DNA of 32,975 nt from an uncultured Oscillospiraceae bacterium (lineage in GTDB: Bacteria > Bacillota > Clostridia > Oscillospirales > Oscillospiraceae), in NCBI GenBank assembly GCA_944385365.1, contig CALWWW010000062.1, forward strand, positions 1 to 32,975. The letters are read 5' to 3'. How positions within the stretch are numbered: the first letter of the stretch is position 1; the number at the start of each line of letters is the position of its first letter. The notes below the pieces were generated by a model. The model did no database searches. It saw only the letters and a list, made by a program, of their open reading frames with translations, and was not told the DNA's origin. Below are positions 2,507 to 9,794 of this stretch, piece after piece. The position numbers and the translations under genes were made by a program.

Positions 2507-2917
2507 TTAATTAAATTTATATCTCCAATCTTTTTTGCCATAATTGCCGCCACATTTTGCAATAATTTTTATTTGCATATACAACTCTTTAAAATTCTTA
2601 ACGTTTTTAAAACAATCAATAACTTCACCAGCATAAGAATGTTTGATGTTATATATTATGTTTTCATTAAACATTTTTATTACGTCTTGGTTTTCTTTAG
2701 TAACTTTGAAATAATCTTCAGAACTATATATTTCTTCTACACATTTTTTTATTGTATTAAGAATATCAGATGCCCAAGTTTTTTGTTTTTCACTTCCTGT
2801 CATACTTAGAGTATTTTTTGCAAGACTCCAAGCCTTTTTAAGGCAATCACTAAATTTAATATTGAATTCTTTTTTAAATTTCCAAGCTCTTTTAAAGATT
2901 TCTGATTTATTAAACAT
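2507..2917 (-). CDS. Hypothetical phage/plasmid protein (MFNKSEIFKRAW type)
   Basis: 136 codons from the ATG at 2917, which lies 8 nt after AGGAG; a GTG three codons earlier overlaps that site. The N-terminal pattern 'NKSEIFKRAWKFKK ... FSDCLKKAWSLAK' is an aromatic helical motif I recognise from many small phage and plasmid proteins of Bacillota without a known function. The middle is Lys/Glu rich with one cluster of Asn. It is the first leftward gene after the promoter at 2965-2994 and faces away from parA. Confidence 0.65.
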   Translation of the reverse strand: MFNKSEIFKRAWKFKKEFNIKFSDCLKKAWSLAKNTLSMTGSEKQKTWASDILNTIKKCVEEIYSSEDYFKVTKENQDVIKMFNENIIYNIKHSYAGEVIDCFKNVKNFKELYMQIKIIAKCGGNYGKKDWRYKFN

Positions 2918-2964
2918 ATATAACACTCCTTTTTATTTTTTTATTTCCCGTTCTTTATATTTAT

Positions 2965-2994
2965 AATATACTACACGCAGTATATAAAAGTCAA
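2965..2994 (-). promoter_or_regulatory. Leftward promoter with internal palindrome
   Basis: On the minus strand: TTGACT (2994-2989), an 18-bp spacer, TATATT (2970-2965). The perfect inverted repeat ATATACT - 6 nt - AGTATAT (2966-2985) occupies the spacer and enters the -10, as a repressor site would. It drives 2917 and probably the genes to 792. Confidence 0.6.
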
Positions 2995-3009
2995 GTATTT
3001 TTTCAAAAG

Positions 3010-3105
3010 TTCTTGTACTTCTTGTACTTACTGTGTATAATTAAATACGATGTATAAGAAGTATAAGAAGTATAATAAGTACATCAAGTATAACACGTAC
3101 AAGAA
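3010..3105 (+). repeat. 9-bp iteron array in the parA promoter/leader
   Basis: Six tandem 9-mers start at 3052: GTATAAGAA, GTATAAGAA, GTATAATAA, GTACATCAA, GTATAACAC, GTACAAGAA. Two further copies in the opposite orientation (TTCTTGTAC, 3010-3018 and 3019-3027) cover the parA -35. The last direct copy abuts the parA ribosome site (AAAGGA at 3104-3109). The layout is that of a centromere that is also the operator of its own partition operon, read by a ribbon-helix-helix protein. The same unit recurs at 3802, 7050 and 8857. Confidence 0.85.
3013..3041 (+). promoter_or_regulatory. Promoter of the parA operon
   Basis: TTGTAC (3013-3018), 17 bp, TATAAT (3036-3041). The -35 lies inside the two inverted 9-mers and the expected start (about 3048) is just before the six direct copies, so protein bound to the repeats would block transcription. 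Confidence 0.7.
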
Positions 3106-3117
3106 AGGATGTTTGAT

Positions 3118-3739
3118 ATGGAAATAATAACAATCGCAAATCAAAAGGGTGGGGTTGGTAAAACAACTACTGCATCAGCTCTTGGAGCTGGCTTAATCAA
3201 AAAGGGGAAAAAGGTTCTTTACATAGACCTTGACCCACAAATTAATTTAACTACATCGCTGGGTGGAGATGAGAATAAAACATCTATATATGATGTAATT
3301 AAAAGTGATATTGATATTAATGAAGCAATTCAAATTATAAACGGAAAACATATTATAGTGGGTGATAGAGCTGCAAGTGGTGCTGACACAGAATTTAATC
3401 TTCCAGGAAGGGAGTATAAATTAAAAAAAGCATTATCAAAATTAAATGATGAATATGACTATATAATAATAGACACGCCTCCTGCATTAGGTGTATTGAC
3501 TATAAACGCATTAACAGCATGTGACAGGGTTTTAATTCCTGCTGAAGCTGATGTGTCAAGCATACAGGGTTATTGCAGAGGCTATTGGTACAAAAGTATA
3601 CACTCAACCAATAAGAGAGTGTGTGGCATTAAAAGAGGCTAAAACACAAATACAAGATATATTTGAATATTCTAAAAACAGTAATGCTACTAATGATTAT
3701 TCTGCATTGATTGAAGAAATTTTAAAGGAGTGTAAATAA
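3118..3739 (+). pseudogene. parA: ParA-type partition ATPase with internal deletion and frameshift
   Basis: The N-terminal part (3118-3570) is a complete ParA nucleotide-binding half: deviant Walker A KGGVGKTT near residue 10, the Walker A' region DLDPQ and Walker B DYIIIDTPPA. After DVSSIQG (to 3570) the frame runs into unrelated residues and stops at 3642. The genuine ParA C-terminus (VIAEAIGTKVYTQPIRE, then VALKEA and IFEY...SNA..DY.ALIEEIL) continues in another frame to 3739. Compared with usual ParA length (about 250-260 residues), some 45 residues between SSIQG and VIAEAI are missing. Loss of about 134-137 bp plus a frame change explains this. The start is the ATG at 3118, 9 nt after AAAGG. 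As it stands the full protein cannot be made, unless the join is an assembly error. Confidence 0.8.
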
Positions 3740-4071
3740 TGGCTAAAAGTTTTAAAAAATCAGATAACCCAGCTCTTAATTTCATTAATATAGAAAAAAA
3801 TATACAACAAGTACACGATGTACAAGAAGTACAAAAACCACAAGAAGTATCAGAAGTTAAAAAGACAAGAACATCTAAAGATACACAGGGCAGAAAAGGT
3901 CAGAAACTTCCAAGAATGAATATGGGATTTTATGATGATAACTTAGAATATATACAAAAAATGTCAAGACTTCGTGGTATGACTATGACTGAGTATATGA
4001 ATGAATTAATTTATGAAGACAAGAAAAAAAAGAAAAAAATTTTAGAGCAATTTGAAAAATATATAGATTAA
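3739..4071 (+). CDS. ParB-like centromere-binding protein (ribbon-helix-helix)
   Basis: 110 codons. The ATG overlaps the parA stop (TAATG) and follows AAAGGAG. Residues about 55-95 (RMNMGFYDDNLEYIQKMSRL then MTMTEYMNELIYEDK) fit a ribbon-helix-helix domain with a basic tail. The disordered N-terminus holds the tripeptide series IQQ-VHD-VQE-VQK-PQE-VSE (residues 22-39), which is the in-frame translation of the same 9-bp repeat that precedes parA. By position and fold it is the DNA-binding partner of ParA and probably represses the operon at 3010-3105. It ends at the hairpin at 4083. The partner role is inferred from context. Confidence 0.75.
   Translation: MAKSFKKSDNPALNFINIEKNIQQVHDVQEVQKPQEVSEVKKTRTSKDTQGRKGQKLPRMNMGFYDDNLEYIQKMSRLRGMTMTEYMNELIYEDKKKKKKILEQFEKYID
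3802..3855 (+). repeat. 9-bp iterons inside the ParB-like gene
   Basis: Six consecutive 9-mers in codon phase: ATACAACAA, GTACACGAT, GTACAAGAA, GTACAAAAA, CCACAAGAA, GTATCAGAA. The third copy is identical to the unit at 3097 and 8902. It may be an intragenic extension of the centromere. Confidence 0.75.
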
Positions 4072-4082
4072 TATTATTTATA

Positions 4083-4118
4083 GGTGTCAGAACTTGACGG
4101 TTTTGACACCTTTTTTTT
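4083..4118 (+). terminator. Terminator of the partition operon
   Basis: Stem GGTGTCA (4083-4089) / TGACACC (4104-4110), extended by AAC/GTT, followed by eight T. Confidence 0.85.
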
Positions 4119-4192
4119 ATTCTTGATATAATAACTTTATAACAGTATCAAAAATAAGTGTCAAATATACGCTGTGAAAGGAGTTTTATTTT

Positions 4193-4786
4193 ATGGGTAA
4201 AATATATGGCTATGCAAGAGTTTCTACTACAGGACAGTATAAACAGGGCAATAGTATAGAAAATCAAATTGAACTATTAAAAAATGCTGGATGTGAAATT
4301 ATACACCAAGAAGCCTGCACTGGAACAAAAAAAGATAGACCTGTATTTAAAAGTCTACTCAAAGAATTAAATACAGGAGATACACTTGTTGTTACAAAAT
4401 TAGATAGACTGGCAAGAACTGCTGTGGAAGGTGTTTCATTAGTTCAAGAGCTACTTGCTGACGGTATAAATGTATATATATTAAATATGGGAATGATAGA
4501 AGATAGTCCCGTTGGAAAATTAATACTAACAATAATGCTTGCCTTCGCAGAATTTGAAAGAGATTTAATAATAGAACGTACCCAGGAAGGAAAAGAAATA
4601 GCCAAGAAAAATCCTGACTATAGAGAAGGCAGACCAAAAAAATTTAAAAGAAAACAAATAGAACATGCACTTGAGCTACTTGAAGAACATACATATAAAG
4701 AAGTAGAAGAGATTACAGGTATATCCAAAAGCACTTTGATAAGGGCAAAAAGAAAAAATATTGCTTTATCTCTCTCAAATAAATAA
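4193..4786 (+). CDS. Serine recombinase (resolvase/invertase family)
   Basis: 197 codons. [10 protein letters not shown] at residues 6-15 contains the catalytic Ser11 and its partner Arg9. TKLDRLAR (about 68-75) and [15 protein letters not shown] (about 118-132, start of the E-helix) complete the catalytic domain. [18 protein letters not shown] at the C-terminus is the helix-turn-helix. It has the length of small resolvases such as Tn3/gamma-delta, not of large phage integrases. Beside a partition operon and a RepA_N gene it would resolve multimers of the circular prophage; inversion of a segment is the alternative. AAAGGAG lies about 10 nt before the ATG. The AT-rich 4119-4192 leader could hold its res site, but I cannot define subsites. 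Confidence 0.9.
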
Positions 4787-4833
4787 TAAATTTAGTATTG
4801 TTGAATATTAGTATTATTGAAGGCAGGATATAT

Positions 4834-4880
4834 AAACTTTTAAAAGTTTGTAAGAATGAACTTTTGGATGTTCATTTTTA
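4834..4880 (+). terminator. Palindrome and terminator after the resolvase
   Basis: A perfect 16-bp palindrome AAACTTTTAAAAGTTT (4834-4849) is followed by ATGAAC (4856-4861) / GTTCAT (4870-4875) with five T after it, suitable for ending the resolvase transcript. A further weak stem AATACAA/TTGTATT lies at 4917-4950. The rest of 4787-5001 is AT-rich, with no gene seen. Confidence 0.5.
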
Positions 4881-5001
4881 TGAACTTCAATTAAAATTTT
4901 GATAAAATTAAAAAAAAATACAACCTTTATGTCAATTTGAAGATTGTATTTTGCTTAAAATAAAAAAAATAAATATAAAAAATATAAAAAAAGACACGAC
5001 A

Positions 5002-5038
5002 AAAAGCCATAAGTTATATAGTTAAATTTATGGCTTTT
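5002..5038 (-). terminator. Terminator of the rep gene (bidirectional)
   Basis: 11-bp stem AAAAGCCATAA (5002-5012) / TTATGGCTTTT (5028-5038) with T-runs on both strands. It lies about 25 nt past the stop of the leftward rep gene. Confidence 0.8.
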
Positions 5039-5061
5039 AAAATTTATTCAGTTTTTTAAAA

Positions 5062-5601
5062 TTATTCTTTTAAAATTGATTTTATGTACTTTCTTTCAAG
5101 TTCCCTTATTTTATTAAAATCCCATTGACGCTGCTCATAGTTACAAAATCTATTTTGTTTTTTAGGTTTTGATGTTTGCATCTTATGAGCTGTTGGGACA
5201 TTTTTTATATTTTCTTTTTCTTCCTGTTTCTGCTCTTTAGGCAGTTCATCAGAATTTACCTGTGCAGGTATTATATTATTTACGTAGATTAAATTAGGTT
5301 TATTTAACCCACGTCTTACAGTTTTTATTAAACCAATAGCAGGGTCTCTTAATTGGTTTAATAACTGTATGGCTTTGGTCTTTCCGCAACCTATAATTTC
5401 TTTTATTGCATTAATTGTAAATATTATATATGTGTTGCCATCTTTATCTTTCCAATTGTTTTGGATTGATAGTTGATGACGGTCAAGCATAAGCATGTAT
5501 AATATTTTTGCATCTGTACTTAAAGATTTATATGTAGATGTGAATAATTCCTTTGGAAACATGCAGAAGGAATTATTTTCATAAATTGTTGTATTAATCA
5601 T
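5062..5601 (-). CDS. repA: RepA_N-family plasmid replication initiator
   Basis: 179 codons from the ATG at 5601, placed 8 nt after AAAGGGG; the longer upstream reading has no ribosome site. Residues about 12-107 match the RepA_N domain closely: MFPKELF, LSTDAKILYMLMLDR, NWKDKDGNTYIIFT, CGKTKAIQLLNQL, then RRGLNKPNLIYV. The domain opens replication of low-copy theta plasmids in Bacillota. The C-terminus has the NRFCNYEQRQWDFNKIRELE pattern seen in clostridial phage/plasmid initiators. At 179 residues it is shorter than the roughly 300-residue staphylococcal relatives. It is transcribed leftward from 5848-5876 through a leader of about 240 nt that carries an attenuator. It explains how the prophage can persist as a plasmid. 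Confidence 0.88.
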   Translation of the reverse strand: MINTTIYENNSFCMFPKELFTSTYKSLSTDAKILYMLMLDRHQLSIQNNWKDKDGNTYIIFTINAIKEIIGCGKTKAIQLLNQLRDPAIGLIKTVRRGLNKPNLIYVNNIIPAQVNSDELPKEQKQEEKENIKNVPTAHKMQTSKPKKQNRFCNYEQRQWDFNKIRELERKYIKSILKE

Positions 5602-5614
5602 AGTTATTTCCCCT

Positions 5615-5788
5615 TTACATATGTATTTTTTGTCGTTTTTTGTTAAAAATGAATAAAAAAATGCTAATGTGAAAAATCGCATTAGCCAAAAATACAGTAT
5701 TGTAAAATTTACATTTCAATGATATAATACAATAAATTTGATTTTTGGTTTGTTTGGCTTTGGTGTGGTTAATGCGATTTGTCATCAT
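5615..5788 (-). CDS. Possible rep leader peptide
   Basis: 57 codons from the ATG at 5788, which lies 9 nt after AAGGA. The stop TAA overlaps the rep ribosome site (AAAGGGG) and lies 14 nt before the rep ATG, as in translational coupling. The frame spans the attenuator hairpin (5655-5687) and the antiterminator strand (5770-5780). The peptide has no recognised domain, only a hydrophobic C-terminal stretch (ANAIFHISIFLFIF). It may be a regulatory uORF or a chance ORF in an AT-rich leader. Confidence 0.3.
   Translation of the reverse strand: MMTNRINHTKAKQTKNQIYCIISLKCKFYNTVFLANAIFHISIFLFIFNKKRQKIHM
5655..5687 (-). terminator. Attenuator hairpin in the rep leader
   Basis: On the minus strand GCTAATG (5686-5680), a 10-nt loop, CATTAGC (5669-5663), then A and seven T: an intrinsic terminator upstream of rep. 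Its 5' arm with the loop (TAATGCGATTT, 5684-5674) is perfectly complementary over 11 bases to AAATCGCATTA (5780-5770) further upstream in the same RNA. That upstream segment can therefore act as antiterminator. Confidence 0.75.
5700..5728 (+). promoter_or_regulatory. Promoter of the antisense RNA
   Basis: TTGTAA (5700-5705), 17 bp, TATAAT (5723-5728), on the strand opposite to rep and inside its leader. No protein gene follows before the terminator at 5805-5840. Confidence 0.75.
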
Positions 5789-5840
5789 TTCAAACATTCC
5801 TTTTCCCTAGTTTGCGGCCAACAAACTAGGGATTTTTTTT
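5735..5840 (+). ncRNA. Countertranscribed RNA controlling rep (predicted)
   Basis: Predicted start about 5735 and end at the T-run 5833-5840, so roughly 106 nt, wholly complementary to the rep leader. It covers the antiterminator strand at 5770-5780, so pairing would leave the terminator at 5655-5687 free to form. Its 3' hairpin loop (CGGCCAA side) faces a target loop in the rep mRNA that contains UUGG, a YUNR U-turn sequence typical of loops used for fast antisense pairing. The organisation matches antisense attenuation known for pT181 and pIP501, and antisense control described for RepA_N plasmids such as pSK41. The length and ends are predictions. Confidence 0.72.
5805..5840 (+). terminator. 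Terminator of the antisense RNA
   Basis: Perfect 10-bp stem CCCTAGTTTG (5805-5814) / CAAACTAGGG (5822-5831), then A and eight T. It points rightward although no rightward coding gene precedes it, which is what first indicates an antisense transcript. Confidence 0.88.
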
Positions 5841-5847
5841 GCCTTTA

Positions 5848-5876
5848 ATTATAATTCATTTTTACACAATTTGCAA
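5848..5876 (-). promoter_or_regulatory. repA: Promoter of rep
   Basis: On the minus strand TTGCAA (5876-5871), 17 bp, TATAAT (5853-5848), with the expected start near 5841, exactly opposite the 3' end of the antisense RNA. It lies immediately after the stop of the DUF4236 gene. Confidence 0.75.
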
Positions 5877-5882
5877 TATATT

Positions 5883-6908
5883 TTAATAACATCTGCCACA
5901 AGGTTGTATTCCTCGTGCTTTTGCATCTTCCAATGATATTTGAACAGGATTTTTCATACCACTACAAGTGGATTTTTTATGATACTTTCCTGAACCGTCA
6001 GCTGGAGTCCAAACCATTGGAACATATTCTTGTTGAGTAGTTTCTTGTTCAGCTGCTGCCTGTTCTTGAGCAAGTCTTTCTTCCTCGGCTTTTCTTTCAG
6101 CTTCTTCTTGAGCAAGTCTTTCTTCCTCAGCTTTTCTTTCAGCCTCAGCCTTTTCCTGTGCAATACGTTCTTCATCAATTACTGTAACTGTAACTGAATT
6201 ACTTTTAACATTACCACTTTTAGCAGTTATTGTTGCTGTTCCTTCTGATTTACTTTCTAATGTTACAACTCCGTCTTTTGTTGTTAATGCAATTACATCT
6301 GTATTGTCAACAATGTATTCTATTTCAGAATTTGCATCACTTGGAGTCAATGTTGTATTTATATTTTGAGTTTCATTAATATCCATTTCAGTTTGTGCTG
6401 AAATTTCAATAGCTTTAGCAGGTGTAATAGGATTTAATGCCCAGTTTGCTATAATTATGATAGATATTATACAAAATACTCCAGCTACTATGTCATAAAT
6501 TTTCTTTTTGTTTTGGTCAACTTTCTTTCGCCATATTGCAAAATATAATATGGCCGGAATTATTCCTAAAAGGAATATGATAGGTAAAAATATAATTATA
6601 AGAATTGTTAATAATATATTTTTACCTTTTTTGGGTGGTTGATTTTGATGACCATTATTGCTTCCCGTAAAATTCAAAGGCTCATTACTAGACCTTTGAT
6701 TATTTTGGTGATTATTACCGCCTAAATTAGTTGTTCGTGAGTAAGATATTCCAGAGCCAGGAATTCCAACAGTAGTTGTTGCTCTACCTTTGGAATTAAC
6801 AGACACTCTTGCTCCACGAGTGCCGGCTGATATACCGACACTATTTTTATTAATATTTAATTTAACCCCCGGTGCAATTTTAATGCTTTTTCTAAATTTA
6901 AAACCCAT
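5883..6908 (-). CDS. DUF4236 membrane protein with Ig-like and C-terminal cysteine domains
   Basis: 341 codons; GGGGG precedes the ATG by about 8 nt. Residues 1-57 (MGFKFRKSIKIAPGVKLN ... TTTVGIPGSGISYS) are a DUF4236 domain. An Asn/Gln-rich linker follows, then hydrophobic segments at about 98-126 and 139-158. Residues about 165-245 look like a bacterial Ig-like (Big_2) domain (DNTDVIALTTKDGVVTLESK, then GTATITAKSG). A long Glu/Ala/Arg repeat helix spans about 247-290. The C-terminus (about 300-341) is a small Cys domain, KYHKKSTCSGM ... GIQPCGRCY, probably metal-binding. It has no known phage structural or replication role. Its place between the repressor and rep suggests a gene expressed from the prophage that alters the host envelope; that is inference. 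Confidence 0.78.
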   Translation of the reverse strand: MGFKFRKSIKIAPGVKLNINKNSVGISAGTRGARVSVNSKGRATTTVGIPGSGISYSRTTNLGGNNHQNNQRSSNEPLNFTGSNNGHQNQPPKKGKNILLTILIIIFLPIIFLLGIIPAILYFAIWRKKVDQNKKKIYDIVAGVFCIISIIIIANWALNPITPAKAIEISAQTEMDINETQNINTTLTPSDANSEIEYIVDNTDVIALTTKDGVVTLESKSEGTATITAKSGNVKSNSVTVTVIDEERIAQEKAEAERKAEEERLAQEEAERKAEEERLAQEQAAAEQETTQQEYVPMVWTPADGSGKYHKKSTCSGMKNPVQISLEDAKARGIQPCGRCY

Positions 6909-6935
6909 AATATACCCCCTTAATTTATATTTTTA

Positions 6936-7505
6936 TTATGCGTTTTTCTTTGCGTAATCTTCGTAAACTGATGATGTTTTCCCTTTTTTCTCGGCTTCAA
7001 GTTCAAGACGATAAGCCTCAAGTTCTCTTTGAATGTCTTCATCAATTTGGCTTTGCACTTCTTGTACTTGTTGTTCTTCTTGTTCCTGTTGTACTTCCTG
7101 TTCTTGTTGTTCTTCATATACTTGTTGCACTTCTTCAATGTGTTCAGAAGCATACTTGAGTGCAACTTTTTTTATATAGTCTAAAAGTGGCTTTATTTCT
7201 TCTGGCTCAAGTGTAACAAGAACATCAAGACAAGATTTTACAATATCATCTAAATTGTACTTCACAACTAACTCGTTGACAATACTTTTTTCATCTTGGC
7301 AGAACATTTCTCCAATACCGTCACGCAACCATTCTTCATTTACATTGAATTTATTGCAAATATCTTGAATAGTTCTGTCTGATAAGTTTCTTTTCCCATT
7401 TTCAACAAGAGATATTGAATTTCTTTGTAGATTTAATTTTTTTGCAAATTCACTTTGGCTTAATTTTAAAGTTTCTCTAATTTCCTTTAATCTTTCGTTT
7501 ATCAT
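6936..7505 (-). CDS. Cro/CI-type repressor with XRE helix-turn-helix
   Basis: 189 codons; GAGGTGA precedes the ATG. Residues 1-65 (MINERLKEIRETLKLSQSEF ... NSISLVENGKRNLS ... FNVNEEWLRDG) are an XRE helix-turn-helix as in phage repressors. There is no S24 peptidase domain, so RecA-style self-cleavage is unlikely. Residues about 70-120 are helical. Residues about 123-152 are a Glu/Val/Gln low-complexity repeat (EVQQVYEEQQEQEVQQ) encoded by degenerate copies of the plasmid-wide 9-bp repeat. It is divergent from the early genes across operators at 7545-7630, the position of the master lysogeny repressor. Confidence 0.85.
   Translation of the reverse strand: MINERLKEIRETLKLSQSEFAKKLNLQRNSISLVENGKRNLSDRTIQDICNKFNVNEEWLRDGIGEMFCQDEKSIVNELVVKYNLDDIVKSCLDVLVTLEPEEIKPLLDYIKKVALKYASEHIEEVQQVYEEQQEQEVQQEQEEQQVQEVQSQIDEDIQRELEAYRLELEAEKKGKTSSVYEDYAKKNA
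7050..7139 (-). repeat. Degenerate 9-bp repeats inside the repressor gene
   Basis: On the minus strand about nine 9-mers in codon phase, including GTGCAACAA, GTATATGAA, GTACAACAG and the exact consensus GTACAAGAA (7067-7059). Others read GAACAACAA or GAACAAGAA. It is weaker than the arrays at 3052 and 8857, and protein-level low complexity could account for part of it. Confidence 0.55.
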
Positions 7506-7526
7506 TTATTTTCACCTCGTTTATTT

Positions 7527-7555
7527 AATATATTATTAAAATGCTAACTTGTCAA
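7527..7555 (-). promoter_or_regulatory. Repressor promoter
   Basis: On the minus strand TTGACA (7555-7550), 17 bp, TATATT (7532-7527). The -35 is part of the operator TTGACAAGTTA. Confidence 0.75.
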
Positions 7556-7630
7556 CATTTAAAAAGGCGTTAATCAACATTAATATTGACAAGTTATCTT
7601 GATTATTATAAAATTTGCTTACAAGTTATC
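7545..7630. promoter_or_regulatory. Operators of the genetic switch
   Basis: A perfect 11-bp pair TAACTTGTCAA (7545-7555) and TTGACAAGTTA (7586-7596) in inverted orientation, plus a third variant TTACAAGTTATC (7619-7630). Each of the first two contains the -35 of one divergent promoter, so one regulator bound there would control both directions. The early copy continues into TTATC as the third site does. Confidence 0.75.
7586..7614 (+). promoter_or_regulatory. Rightward early promoter
   Basis: TTGACA (7586-7591), 17 bp, TAAAAT (7609-7614), with its -35 inside an operator copy and a third operator-like site just downstream of the -10. Confidence 0.75.
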
Positions 7631-7655
7631 AAAAATAAAAGGATAGGTGAGAATT

Positions 7656-7802
7656 ATGGAGGAAAAATTAGAAAAGAAAAAAGAACTTTTAACTGAATGT
7701 GCGACAGAATTAGAAAAATTACCAGAAGATGCTGTTATGGACATGTTGTTAGTAATAAAAGGTGCAGCAATCGCCTATAAAAGCAAAATGAAAGCAAGCT
7801 GA
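7656..7802 (+). CDS. Small early protein (48 residues)
   Basis: ATG at 7656, AGGTGA 6 nt before it, TGA at 7800-7802. The product begins MEEKLEKKKELLTECATELE and ends with a helix rich in Ala and Met (DAVMDMLLVIKGAAIAYKSK). It is the first gene after the early promoter, the position usual for Cro or an early regulator, but no helix-turn-helix is evident. A terminator-like hairpin follows at 7817. Not recognised. Confidence 0.6.
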   Translation: MEEKLEKKKELLTECATELEKLPEDAVMDMLLVIKGAAIAYKSKMKAS

Positions 7803-7816
7803 CAGTTAAATATCAA

Positions 7817-7851
7817 AAAAAGTCTCTATTTTGACCATATAGGGACTTTTT
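7817..7851 (+). terminator. Terminator-like hairpin early in the rightward operon
   Basis: Stem AGTCTCTAT (7821-7829) / ATAGGGACT (7839-7847) with flanking A/T pairs and five T. Genes downstream need readthrough, antitermination or a second promoter (possibly in 7858-7890). Confidence 0.75.
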
Positions 7852-7883
7852 GGGACTTTGTAATAATTATTGTTAAGTTAATA

Positions 7884-7908
7884 TTTAACGTTTGTTGTAG
7901 ACGTTAAA
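7884..7908. promoter_or_regulatory. Inverted repeat before the second early operon
   Basis: Perfect 8-bp inverted repeat TTTAACGT - 9 nt - ACGTTAAA, 14 nt before the ATG at 7923 and not followed by T. It is a candidate operator or mRNA hairpin. Confidence 0.45.
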
Positions 7909-7922
7909 AAAGGGGAAATTTT

Positions 7923-8153
7923 ATGAAAACAATTAATATCAAAGTGGGGGATATTGTAAAAATAACAAAGTCAATTGTTGACTATGAAAATGAAAATCCT
8001 CAAAAGACAAGGAAATCTCTTGTAAATTATAAAGTTATAGCACTCTATCCCCATGGAGTGCTTTGTCAAAGAAAAGTGATGAAAGGCATTATTCGTGAGT
8101 TTTTTTGTTATAACTTGTTTAGAACAGGCGAGTGTATTTGGAGGAGAGTTTAA
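7923..8153 (+). CDS. Small hypothetical phage protein
   Basis: 76 codons; AAGGGGA lies about 8 nt before the ATG. The N-terminus KVGDIVKITKS and the later YKVIALYPHGVLCQ with GIIREFFCYNLFR match a small early-region protein of clostridial phages whose function I do not know; an SH3-like barrel is plausible. The stop overlaps the next ATG (TAATG). Confidence 0.65.
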   Translation: MKTINIKVGDIVKITKSIVDYENENPQKTRKSLVNYKVIALYPHGVLCQRKVMKGIIREFFCYNLFRTGECIWRRV

Positions 8154-8452
8154 TGTTTAAATTTGAGTTTGATAAGAAAAATAGAAAATACGACTTAAAA
8201 GTTGAAGATATTCCAGGATTTGAAATATTAAATGCAATAGAAAGTTTTGGAAAAAGTATACAGTTGCTTATTAAAAAAAATGTCCTACCTGATGCAGAAG
8301 AAGAATTTAAGAGAGATGCTTTTGATTGTTTTAAAAATGGCTTATATTCGCAAGGCTCTTACAGTCATGCGAAAAGATGCTTTGAAAATACATTGATAGA
8401 AAGAGAATTTCAAAGAACATTAGAGGAAGTGTATTCAAGGAGGAGTTTATAA
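8153..8452 (+). CDS. Hypothetical protein
   Basis: 99 codons from the ATG at 8153, preceded by GGAGGAG; an upstream in-frame start lies inside the previous gene and has no ribosome site. The N-terminus is charged (FEFDKKNRKYDLKVEDIPGF) and the rest helical and mixed, with two Cys. It is coupled to its neighbours on both sides (TAATG before; TAAGTG after). Not recognised. Confidence 0.6.
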   Translation: MFKFEFDKKNRKYDLKVEDIPGFEILNAIESFGKSIQLLIKKNVLPDAEEEFKRDAFDCFKNGLYSQGSYSHAKRCFENTLIEREFQRTLEEVYSRRSL

Positions 8453-8845
8453 GTGGGATACAGGTCAAGTAGGAAAAGTAAAAAAAATAATATTGAACGT
8501 ATTCAAAAAGATTTAAAAACATTGAAAATGCGAAATAAGGTTTTGGAAAAAGTCGTAATTGATACCAACAATGAATATCATCAAAAATTTTTAAAAATGC
8601 AAGCCAATGTATCATATGCTCAGGGAAGTTGTGCAGGTGCAGTTGCACGTATTGATGAAATCGAAAAAGAGCAAAAACATTTAAAAATAAGTGTTCGAAA
8701 AAACAGAGAAAGAAATAATGTCAGATATTTTTATATGCTTAGAAAATTAAAAAATAAAGTTGATGAACCTGCTATTAAGGTTTATGTTTTTACCGGAATA
8801 TCAGCATTTTTAGGCTGTTCATTAGCATATTTAATTTTTACATAA
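8453..8845 (+). CDS. Coiled-coil protein with C-terminal membrane anchor
   Basis: 130 codons with a GTG start immediately after the previous stop; AAGGAGGAG lies 8-9 nt before it. Residues 1-85 are strongly basic and helical (SSRKSKKNNIERIQKDLKTL). Residues about 108-129 (VYVFTGISAFLGCSLAYLIF) form one membrane segment at the C-terminus. A tail-anchored, DNA- or protein-binding rod at the membrane is plausible. Not recognised. The iteron array at 8857 begins 11 bp after the stop. Confidence 0.65.
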   Translation: MGYRSSRKSKKNNIERIQKDLKTLKMRNKVLEKVVIDTNNEYHQKFLKMQANVSYAQGSCAGAVARIDEIEKEQKHLKISVRKNRERNNVRYFYMLRKLKNKVDEPAIKVYVFTGISAFLGCSLAYLIFT

Positions 8846-8856
8846 AAGCATATTAA

Positions 8857-8919
8857 GTATAAGTTGTACAAGTTGTATAAGAAGTATAACTTGTACAATA
8901 AGTACAAGAAGTATAAAAG
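8857..8919 (+). repeat. 9-bp iteron array before the replisome organiser
   Basis: Seven exact-period 9-mers: GTATAAGTT, GTACAAGTT, GTATAAGAA, GTATAACTT, GTACAATAA, GTACAAGAA, GTATAAAAG. The last runs into the AGGAGGG ribosome site of 8931. This is the same family as the array before parA (3010-3105), so one protein could bind both. Confidence 0.85.
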
Positions 8920-8930
8920 GAGGGTTTTTT

Positions 8931-9794
8931 ATGGCAACTATAAGAGTGGAAAAAAATAAAAATTACAGCGTTATGAGTAATACACCATTGCAAGATAAAA
9001 ATTTGTCATTGAAGGCAAAAGGTCTTTTGGCTCTTGTTTTTACACTTCCGGAAGATTGGGAGTATAGTATTAACGGAGTTTGTAAGATAGTTAAAGAAAG
9101 TAAAGCAGCTGTTATGACTGCTTTTGATGAACTTGAGAAATTTGGATATTTAAAAAGAGAACGCAACAGAGCAAAAGGTGGAAAATTTGCAGGGTTTACA
9201 TATGTTTTTTATGAAACACCACAAGAAACTAAGTCTGAAGAAGAATGTACAGATATAGAAGAACCATATTCTGAAAAACCGTATACCGAAAAACCGTATA
9301 CCGAAAAACCGTATACCGAAAATCCGACACAACAAAATACTAATATAACAAAATACTTAAATAAAAAAACATGTCAGCAGTCTAAAGACTGTGACGCTGC
9401 TCCTGATGAAGTGTCTTGTTTTGATGAAAATTCTCAAGAATATATTATAGCTAAAACATTAAGTGATAACATTCTTGAGTTACGACCAAAAGCTAAAGTT
9501 CCAAGAAACTTTAAAGACATGCAAAAATGGGCAGAATTGATTGACAAAATGATTAGGATTGATAAAGCTGAGCCTCAAGAAATTTACGATGTGCTTAATT
9601 TTGTCAAATCAGATAAGTTTTGGAGTAAAAATATATTGTCTCCGTCAGCTTTAAGAAAGCATTTTGATAGACTTATGATAACCATACAAAACCAAAAACC
9701 ACAGGAAAAACCTACACCACAGCCACAGACTGTATCGTCAAAAGCTGATAAAGTGCTTGAAAAATTAATGGGTGAAGGTGGTTTATATGACTAA
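8931..9794 (+). CDS. Replisome organiser / DnaD-like initiator with helix-turn-helix N-domain
   Basis: 287 codons; GGAGGG lies about 8 nt before the ATG. Residues 1-95 (IRVEKNKNYSVMSNTPLQDKN, LSLKAKGLLALVFTLPEDWE, KESKAAVMTAFDELEKFGYL) are the winged-helix domain common to replisome organisers of Bacillota phages. An acidic linker with four PYxEKPYTEKP-type repeats follows (about residues 108-130). The C-terminal part (about 165-250) is helical and ends in a disordered Gln/Pro region. It lies directly before DnaB and overlaps it, so it probably opens the origin and loads the helicase in lytic growth. Two repeat sets, in its leader and within its linker DNA, are origin candidates. Confidence 0.82.
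   Translation: MATIRVEKNKNYSVMSNTPLQDKNLSLKAKGLLALVFTLPEDWEYSINGVCKIVKESKAAVMTAFDELEKFGYLKRERNRAKGGKFAGFTYVFYETPQETKSEEECTDIEEPYSEKPYTEKPYTEKPYTENPTQQNTNITKYLNKKTCQQSKDCDAAPDEVSCFDENSQEYIIAKTLSDNILELRPKAKVPRNFKDMQKWAELIDKMIRIDKAEPQEIYDVLNFVKSDKFWSKNILSPSALRKHFDRLMITIQNQKPQEKPTPQPQTVSSKADKVLEKLMGEGGLYD
9258..9332 (+). repeat. 15-bp tandem repeats inside the replisome organiser gene
   Basis: GAAAAACCGTATACC occurs perfectly at 9273, 9288 and 9303, with degenerate copies before (9258) and after (9318). The unit contains the palindrome GTATAC and is five codons long. Many phage origins (lambda O is the known case) lie as repeats within the initiator gene. Confidence 0.7.

Follow-up and report, generated by a model that had tools for sequence, protein, structure and literature searches.

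The window analysed here is the whole of contig C62 (CALWWW010000062.1; 32,975 bp) from an uncultured Oscillospiraceae bacterium, and it carries the terminase, portal and tape measure genes of a phage structural set, together with genes for a replisome organiser, a DnaB helicase, a helix-turn-helix (HTH) repressor, a resolvase, a RepA_N initiator and a pair consisting of ParA and a ribbon-helix-helix (RHH) protein. Because the phage structural genes, the RepA_N initiator and the ParA-RHH pair lie on one contig, the window looks like a phage-plasmid. Tandem arrays of a 9-bp repeat occur in it at four sites, before parA, inside the RHH gene, inside the repressor gene and before the organiser gene, and these arrays and the genes that they touch are as follows:

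3010..3027, minus strand: two inverted 9-mers, both GTACAAGAA, by direct reading
3052..3105, plus strand: six direct 9-mers, directly before the start of parA
3109..3642, plus strand: first piece of a broken ParA, 177 aa, matching AAA_31 (9e-48) and phrog_164
3551..3739, plus strand: second piece of the broken ParA, 62 aa, in another frame, matching a ParA profile (9.2e-14)
3739..4071, plus strand: RHH ParB-like protein P0001, the proposed reader of the repeats, whose family profile matches ParG (1p94; E 3.9e-5)
3802..3855, plus strand: six 9-mers within the RHH gene, coding the V-Q linker of its product
6936..7505, minus strand: HTH_3 repressor P0002, array-bearing, with domain and PHROGs matches
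7050..7139, minus strand: nine degenerate units at 7059-7139 and a tenth (GTGCAAAGC) at 7050-7058, in the tail-coding part of the repressor gene
8857..8919, plus strand: seven 9-mers, 12 bp from the start of the replisome organiser gene
8931..9794, plus strand: replisome organiser or DnaD-like helicase loader P0003, with domain and PHROGs matches

A sequence-only reading of the window had described tandem GTAYAAGAA arrays at these four sites, with one exact unit common to all of them, and the observation is confirmed: GTACAAGAA is present in each array, and G-T-A-C/T-A-A-G/C-A-A is the consensus of the 30 units counted in the window. Two of the six units in the RHH gene depart from it at their first letters (ATACAACAA and CCACAAGAA), and the repressor array, put at about nine units in that reading, has about ten over 7050-7139. 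There are nine exact copies of GTAYAAGAA on the two strands of the window and all nine lie within the arrays, compared to a mean of 1.6 and a maximum of 5 in 100 runs of a second-order Markov null; with one mismatch permitted there are 42 places, with 26.2 expected. A scoring matrix was built from 44 units of the intergenic arrays of three relatives (L012, L013 and L017), with the window excluded, and gives four-unit scores of 42.0 bits (3802), 39.2 (7059), 37.0 (8875), 34.2 (3070-3105) and 27.8 (3001-3036); the remainder of the repressor array scores 19.0. Elsewhere in the window nothing scores above 13.3 bits, the maximum in dinucleotide shuffles, which form a small null of 20 per locus. The best score in 380 kb of other contigs from the same assembly is 17.1, an imperfect null because those contigs have 49–61% G+C and the window has 31%. 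Two tandem units with up to two mismatches match ten places in the assembly, all ten of them on the window contig, and with up to three mismatches the pattern has 25 matches and its backwards control 21, so that only the close matches are telling.

The array at 3052-3105, just ahead of parA, is probably a centromere and operator. By eye, a possible −35 element (TTGTAC, 3013-3018) is overlapped by the inverted units and lies 17 bp before a −10-like TATAAT (3036-3041), which stands between the inverted and the direct units; this pair is absent from the listing of our promoter scan. The sigma-70 scan of 2900-9000 returned 38 promoter-like sites with 33.4 expected, and since such sites are no commoner than chance we have not used it as evidence.

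The RHH protein has few relatives. Searches with P0001 alone found them in 2 of 98 other genomes in the relatives set, 1 of 399 in the family set and 3 of 393 in the order set (the three sets overlap), and found none in the viral contig, genome contig, phage or plasmid collections; an alignment of five RHH relatives retrieved 14 loci from the genome contig collection and four from the viral contig collection. We have used 19 RHH loci besides the window, counting the duplicates L022, L023 and L033 (identical to L016, L013 and L017) once and leaving out G085, where the profile match is weak (L038; E 4.4e-5, with one internal stop); L096 was added later, and both it and L031 are absent from the family alignment A3. 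The assemblies concerned are labelled as Oscillospiraceae, Oscillibacter, Lachnospiraceae, Mobilitalea, Butyricicoccus and other Clostridia or Firmicutes.

The repeats accompany the RHH gene at almost all of these loci. Arrays score above the shuffles of their own locus at 17 of 18 RHH loci and above 16 bits at 18 of 19, L096 included. A matrix scan of this kind had been proposed in the sequence-only reading, and it recovers arrays both in the window (27.8–42.0 bits) and at 14 of the 15 relatives outside the training set. The position counts that follow refer to 19 loci, with the window included and L096 excluded. The next gene upstream of the RHH gene is parA in all 19 (with a gap of 164 bp in L032), and L096 likewise has a ParA-like open reading frame upstream. 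At 12 loci parA has an array in the 400 bp or so before it, and at three more (L020, L021 and L024) the array precedes a gene that leads into parA; at 13 loci, with a three-unit threshold, there is an array inside the RHH gene itself. Other arrays stand before, or over the start of, tyrosine recombinase genes (L018, L021, L024 and L096), before a zeta-toxin-like gene (L013), before a small gene in L012 and L029, which also have intergenic arrays that do not closely precede a gene, and inside the parA gene of L021 (6607-6651). Two further arrangements may be recorded: L026 has several arrays over about 540 bp before parA (8523-9065) and none in its RHH gene, and L031 (1582-2325) encodes an RHH protein of 247 aa whose N-terminal part is full of iteron-coded V-Q repeats. 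The replication proteins vary from locus to locus (RepA_N in the window, phrog_4402 in L013 and L017, DnaB-like in L018 and L096), and ParA and the RHH protein are constant. By sequence association, it is thus supported that the 9-bp repeats belong with the family of the RHH protein encoded at 3739.

Loci that resemble parts of the window and lack this RHH protein have no such arrays. None exceeds 16 bits at ten ParA loci, at 19 organiser homologue loci or at 14 repressor homologue loci, and the RHH profile detects all 19 RHH loci and none of these controls. The ParA controls were hand-picked from 60 listed rows, and one of them has a place of 14.1 bits (L105), short of the 16-bit line; the organiser controls are the 19 with loci among 34 matches outside the window's own contig, and the repressor controls come from 16 such matches, two of which lie on the RHH contig of L013 and were set apart. 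About 1.5 kb was scanned on each side, less at contig ends, and in G094 and G035 the RHH gene is on a contig other than those scanned. Relatives that keep the genes and lack the repeats had been named in advance as a finding that would count against the sequence-only reading; they were encountered only as organisers and repressors without this RHH protein nearby, which fits it. We note also that L045 has an organiser homologue and a ParA profile match (4.3e-37) in one stretch, without this RHH protein and without an array, and that a Lawsonia plasmid (L097) has, by eye, ACATATA-like periodic motifs before parA and in the next gene, perhaps the same design with another unit.

The RHH family resembles known centromere-binding proteins. 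Searched against solved structures in the PDB, its profile has ParG as the best match and a weak match to Arc (0.045), and at E<=10 it finds seven sequences, including ParG, AvtR and Arc. The ParG family PF09274 is matched at E<=1 by nine of 18 RHH members (best 1.4e-4), and P0001 is not among them. In a structure model of P0001, residues 13-42 have pLDDT<50 and helices span 66-79, 83-97 and 99-109. Foldseek with this model returned nothing at E<=0.001, and its ten best matches are Arc, KacTA and AtaTR entries, which we take to be RHH proteins. K-x-x-R-x-N-x-x-F is invariant in the family (K56, R59, N61 and F64), and because the family matches ParG and Arc we infer that this stretch is the DNA-reading strand. 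Three traits of type Ib ParABS systems are seen here: a Walker-type ParA encoded directly before a small putative centromere-binding protein (19 of 19 loci, with ParA in two broken pieces in the window), a C-terminal RHH domain with a flexible N-terminus in that protein (from the profile and the structure model), and a probable short-repeat centromere before the par operon (3010-3105 in the window; 15 of 19 loci, including the three with a gene leading into parA).

We consider it likely that the RHH protein from 3739 binds the arrays as centromere and operator, in a module resembling type Ib partition systems on a phage-plasmid. The module would consist of ParA and the small RHH centromere-binding protein, with RHH dimers sitting on head-to-tail 9-bp units of consensus [G/A][T/C]A[C/T]AA[G/C]A[A/T]. 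Together, the arrays at 3010-3105 and 3802-3855 would form the centromere and an operator at which the parA-RHH operon is repressed; the second of them falls in the sequence that codes the RHH protein's own N-terminal linker, which is disordered. The protein would probably also load on 8857-8919, and the array within the repressor gene may be a further target. Binding, repression and partition are predictions from this arrangement, as is the link that they would make between partition, lysogeny and replication.

By analogy with the arrays at parA, the array at 8857-8919 is probably a further RHH site, and a possible operator or extra parS. Loading there would damp the lytic replication operon or provide a further parS, or both, and the direction of any effect on replication is itself predicted. 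A competing explanation is that the RHH protein binds this array, and that in the repressor gene, merely as an additional centromere with no effect on replication or lysogeny. We regard this as unlikely, if worth serious attention: intergenic arrays that are not close before any gene, such as those in L012 and L029, speak for it, and no sigma-70-like site was found on the plus strand within 250 bp before 8857; however, the array abuts the organiser start much as another abuts parA, and the arrays of relatives before or over the starts of tyrosine recombinase or zeta-toxin-like genes also speak for a role beyond that of a centromere.

The arrays inside genes require a separate argument. Since nine is a multiple of three, an array can lie within the linker reading frame, and those in the RHH genes mostly code V/A/T-Q-E/D repeats in the disordered linker. 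We compared motif content by synonymous resampling, in which the amino acids are fixed and the codons are redrawn from the same locus. In a first pass, 15 of 19 RHH linkers are richer in the motif than resampled codons at p<0.05 (p=0.0005 for the window); L031 had been cut too early in that pass (p=0.25) and gives p=0.0002 when rerun on its array-bearing stretch, which was chosen after the array was seen. Among ParA control segments 5 of 91 reach p<0.05, one of them being the L021 array. At loci with a G+C content of at least 0.45, the linker glutamine codon is CAA in 28 of 45 cases compared to 27 of 112 elsewhere, and the linker valine codon is GTA in 17 of 34 compared to 20 of 100 elsewhere. 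Given the bias in 15 of 19 linkers and in 5 of 91 ParA segments, selection at the DNA level in the RHH genes is well supported. The array in the L021 parA gene is read in a different frame (T-T-Y...; p=0.0002), and thus it is the DNA that appears to be kept and not one peptide.

It could be argued instead that only the intergenic arrays are protein sites and that the intragenic ones, above all that of the repressor, are low-complexity protein repeats of the V-Q-E or E-Q-Q type. A three-unit motif search has matches in six viral stretches and, within the class, in five of 390 further genomes (nine genomes for the backwards control), and at 11 motif-search loci with GTACAAGAA tandem repeats in unrelated coding sequence neither the RHH nor the ParA profile has a match; nine of these loci were viewed, and there the array falls within an open frame, mostly coding V-Q-E, E-Q-E or Y-K-K repeats. 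Such loci favour protein repeats, as do the Q/E-rich tail of P0002 and an array-like repeat in the DnaB-like helicase gene of L096 (9066-9101) that has no codon bias (p=0.30). The codon bias of the RHH linkers with its calibrated controls, the change of frame in L021 and the rarity of the motif, since with five unrelated places in 390 genomes one would hardly be expected on a contig of 33 kb, nonetheless make this explanation improbable. As a separate observation, perfect V-Q-E repeats lie, by eye, in an apparent phage replication protein of L107 (12668-12703), a locus without RHH or ParA profile matches.

The repressor array is the weakest of the four, because V-Q-E-type coding repeats arise without this RHH system. 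Its codons are biased (p=0.0072 for codons 121-152, compared to p=0.58 for codons 1-121), which speaks against a plain protein repeat, and these figures are post hoc. On balance we favour its inclusion in the set, with some reserve. A homologue of P0002 is found among the stretches of the RHH relatives only in L013, where two repressor homologues lie in a row (5266-6180) and an array follows about 60 bp behind the second, in frame, past two stops. The proposal of the sequence-only reading that the 3739 protein reads all of the sites therefore stands in part: the association of the family with the unit, present in 18 of 19 relatives, bears it out, but the organiser array has no comparable relative and the repressor array is weak. 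As a tentative extension, which we hold to be rather doubtful, the centromere may be dual-coded, with sites written into reading frames, first in the RHH linker, and then spread further, into the repressor gene of the window and parA of L021, whereby a single protein would tie together segregation, lysogeny and lytic replication.

Two other candidate readers of the arrays are encoded in the window, in addition to the organiser:

5062..5682, minus strand: RepA_N plasmid initiator, with no array at its gene
2249-2434: CopG-like RHH_1 protein

The arrays have the look of replication iterons, and one adjoins the organiser gene, but that they serve a Rep protein (RepA_N or the organiser at 8931) is very improbable, since the RepA_N gene is free of arrays, the 19 organiser homologue loci without the RHH protein have none, and the unit is kept in relatives with other replication proteins and no homologue of P0003 or P0006 on the stretch. 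That some other phage DNA-binding protein reads the arrays can be given scarcely any weight, since one candidate, the CopG-like protein, is of the RHH_1 type but the unit tracks the P0001 family across relatives (the distribution of the CopG-like gene was not compared).

Several observations weigh against the proposed role of the RHH protein and its arrays, besides the motif-search loci and the lack of a promoter-like site before 8857 already described. The window ParA is split between frames, and its inner part is missing relative to that of relatives; either genuine decay or an error of assembly could account for this, and the module may accordingly be dead or misassembled. P0001 alone has no Pfam or PHROGs match at E 0.001. 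L025 has a ParA-RHH pair and no array, and there is no array near parA in L018, L025, L027 or L032. The codon test is failed by the RHH linkers of L025, L026, L034 and L096 (p=0.20 in L096), and codon homogeneity produced by tandem duplication could mimic part of the signal. The counts are not all independent, as L012 and L029, L013 and L028, and L017 and L034 are near relatives. None of the 19 stretches of RHH relatives has a homologue of P0003 or P0006, and so the position of the array at 8857 has no comparative support; P0003 on its own has no relatives in the viral contig collection. Finally, the window has a G+C content of 0.31 and 19 stretches from other contigs of the same assembly have 0.49-0.61; because of this difference the contig may be misbinned or have a different host.

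As to the element itself, no exact overlap was found between the contig ends in a check for circularity, and window DNA from 1-25000 has no close relatives in the phage collection. At 4082-4132, between the RHH gene and the resolvase gene, a terminator-like hairpin and a perfect match to a TTGACA-18-TATAAT promoter overlap each other, and a 42-bp tandem repeat of 1.9 copies lies at 6063-6143 within a DUF4236 gene.

Our comparisons with known systems draw on abstracts and excerpts of the papers cited. RHH centromere-binding proteins are described there as binding short repeats, acting in partition and repressing their own operon (PMC7308502, PMC5016525). A close parallel in design is the delta/omega system of pSM19035 with its parS1-3 sites, in which a small RHH protein, working with a ParA, binds arrays of short tandem repeats over the parA, parB and copS promoters (PMC4498918, PMC9499535, PMC5016525), and at least four contiguous repeats are required for full ParA activation (PMC4498918, PMC9499535); the arrays of the window have six to ten units each. 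It differs in that its units are 7-bp WATCACW heptads and not a 9-bp GTAYAAGAA-like unit, in that it is a plasmid and not a phage, with sites that overlap promoters, and in that omega is outside the PDB matches (E<=10) of the window RHH profile. In the ParF/ParG/parH system of TP228, ParG, the best solved-structure match by sequence, likewise has a flexible N-terminus and both centromere and operator roles, but parH is made of degenerate tetramer boxes with AT-rich spacers and not of 9-bp iterons, and the excerpts do not mention intragenic iterons (PMC7308502).

Extrachromosomal prophages with several parS loci are known in the mycobacteriophages RedRock, Miko and Rachaly; each RedRock parS locus has eight 8-bp direct repeats, Miko and Rachaly have an extra parS adjoining repA, and phage-derived plasmids without parABS change in copy number (PMC7157519). 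Their ParB protein and repeat are different, and the available parts of that account describe arrays neither within reading frames nor at an operon for lytic replication (PMC7157519). The sop system of N15 also has partition sites dispersed over a phage-plasmid (PMC5016525, PMC7205306), with SopB and inverted repeats in its case, and the parCAB system of plasmid pMF1 has dispersed AGATGTCT-like units towards the replication region (PMC3235114) and a ParB described as without homologues. Dispersed ParB sites are also published for plasmid RK2. The statement in the sequence-only reading that no such spread had been described is thus too broad: dispersed partition sites as such are already known, from pSM19035, N15, RK2, pMF1 and RedRock or Miko. 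Neither the 9-bp unit nor iteron arrays inside an RHH gene appeared in the titles, abstracts and passages searched, mostly outside the subscription literature, and as far as these searches show, what is new is a ParA-RHH family with a 9-bp unit and with arrays embedded in reading frames under a codon signature. A site inside a parB gene does have a parallel in B. subtilis, where parS lies within spo0J.

These loci bring together a coherent ParA-RHH-iteron family, found on plasmid-like and phage-like elements, and its motif can serve as a query in searches. With the window, the idea that one partition protein may govern segregation and phage replication alike can be put to the test. Through the codon bias in the RHH genes, selection acting at the DNA level on a protein linker can be measured, which bears on how short iterons may spread through compact genomes while leaving genes intact.

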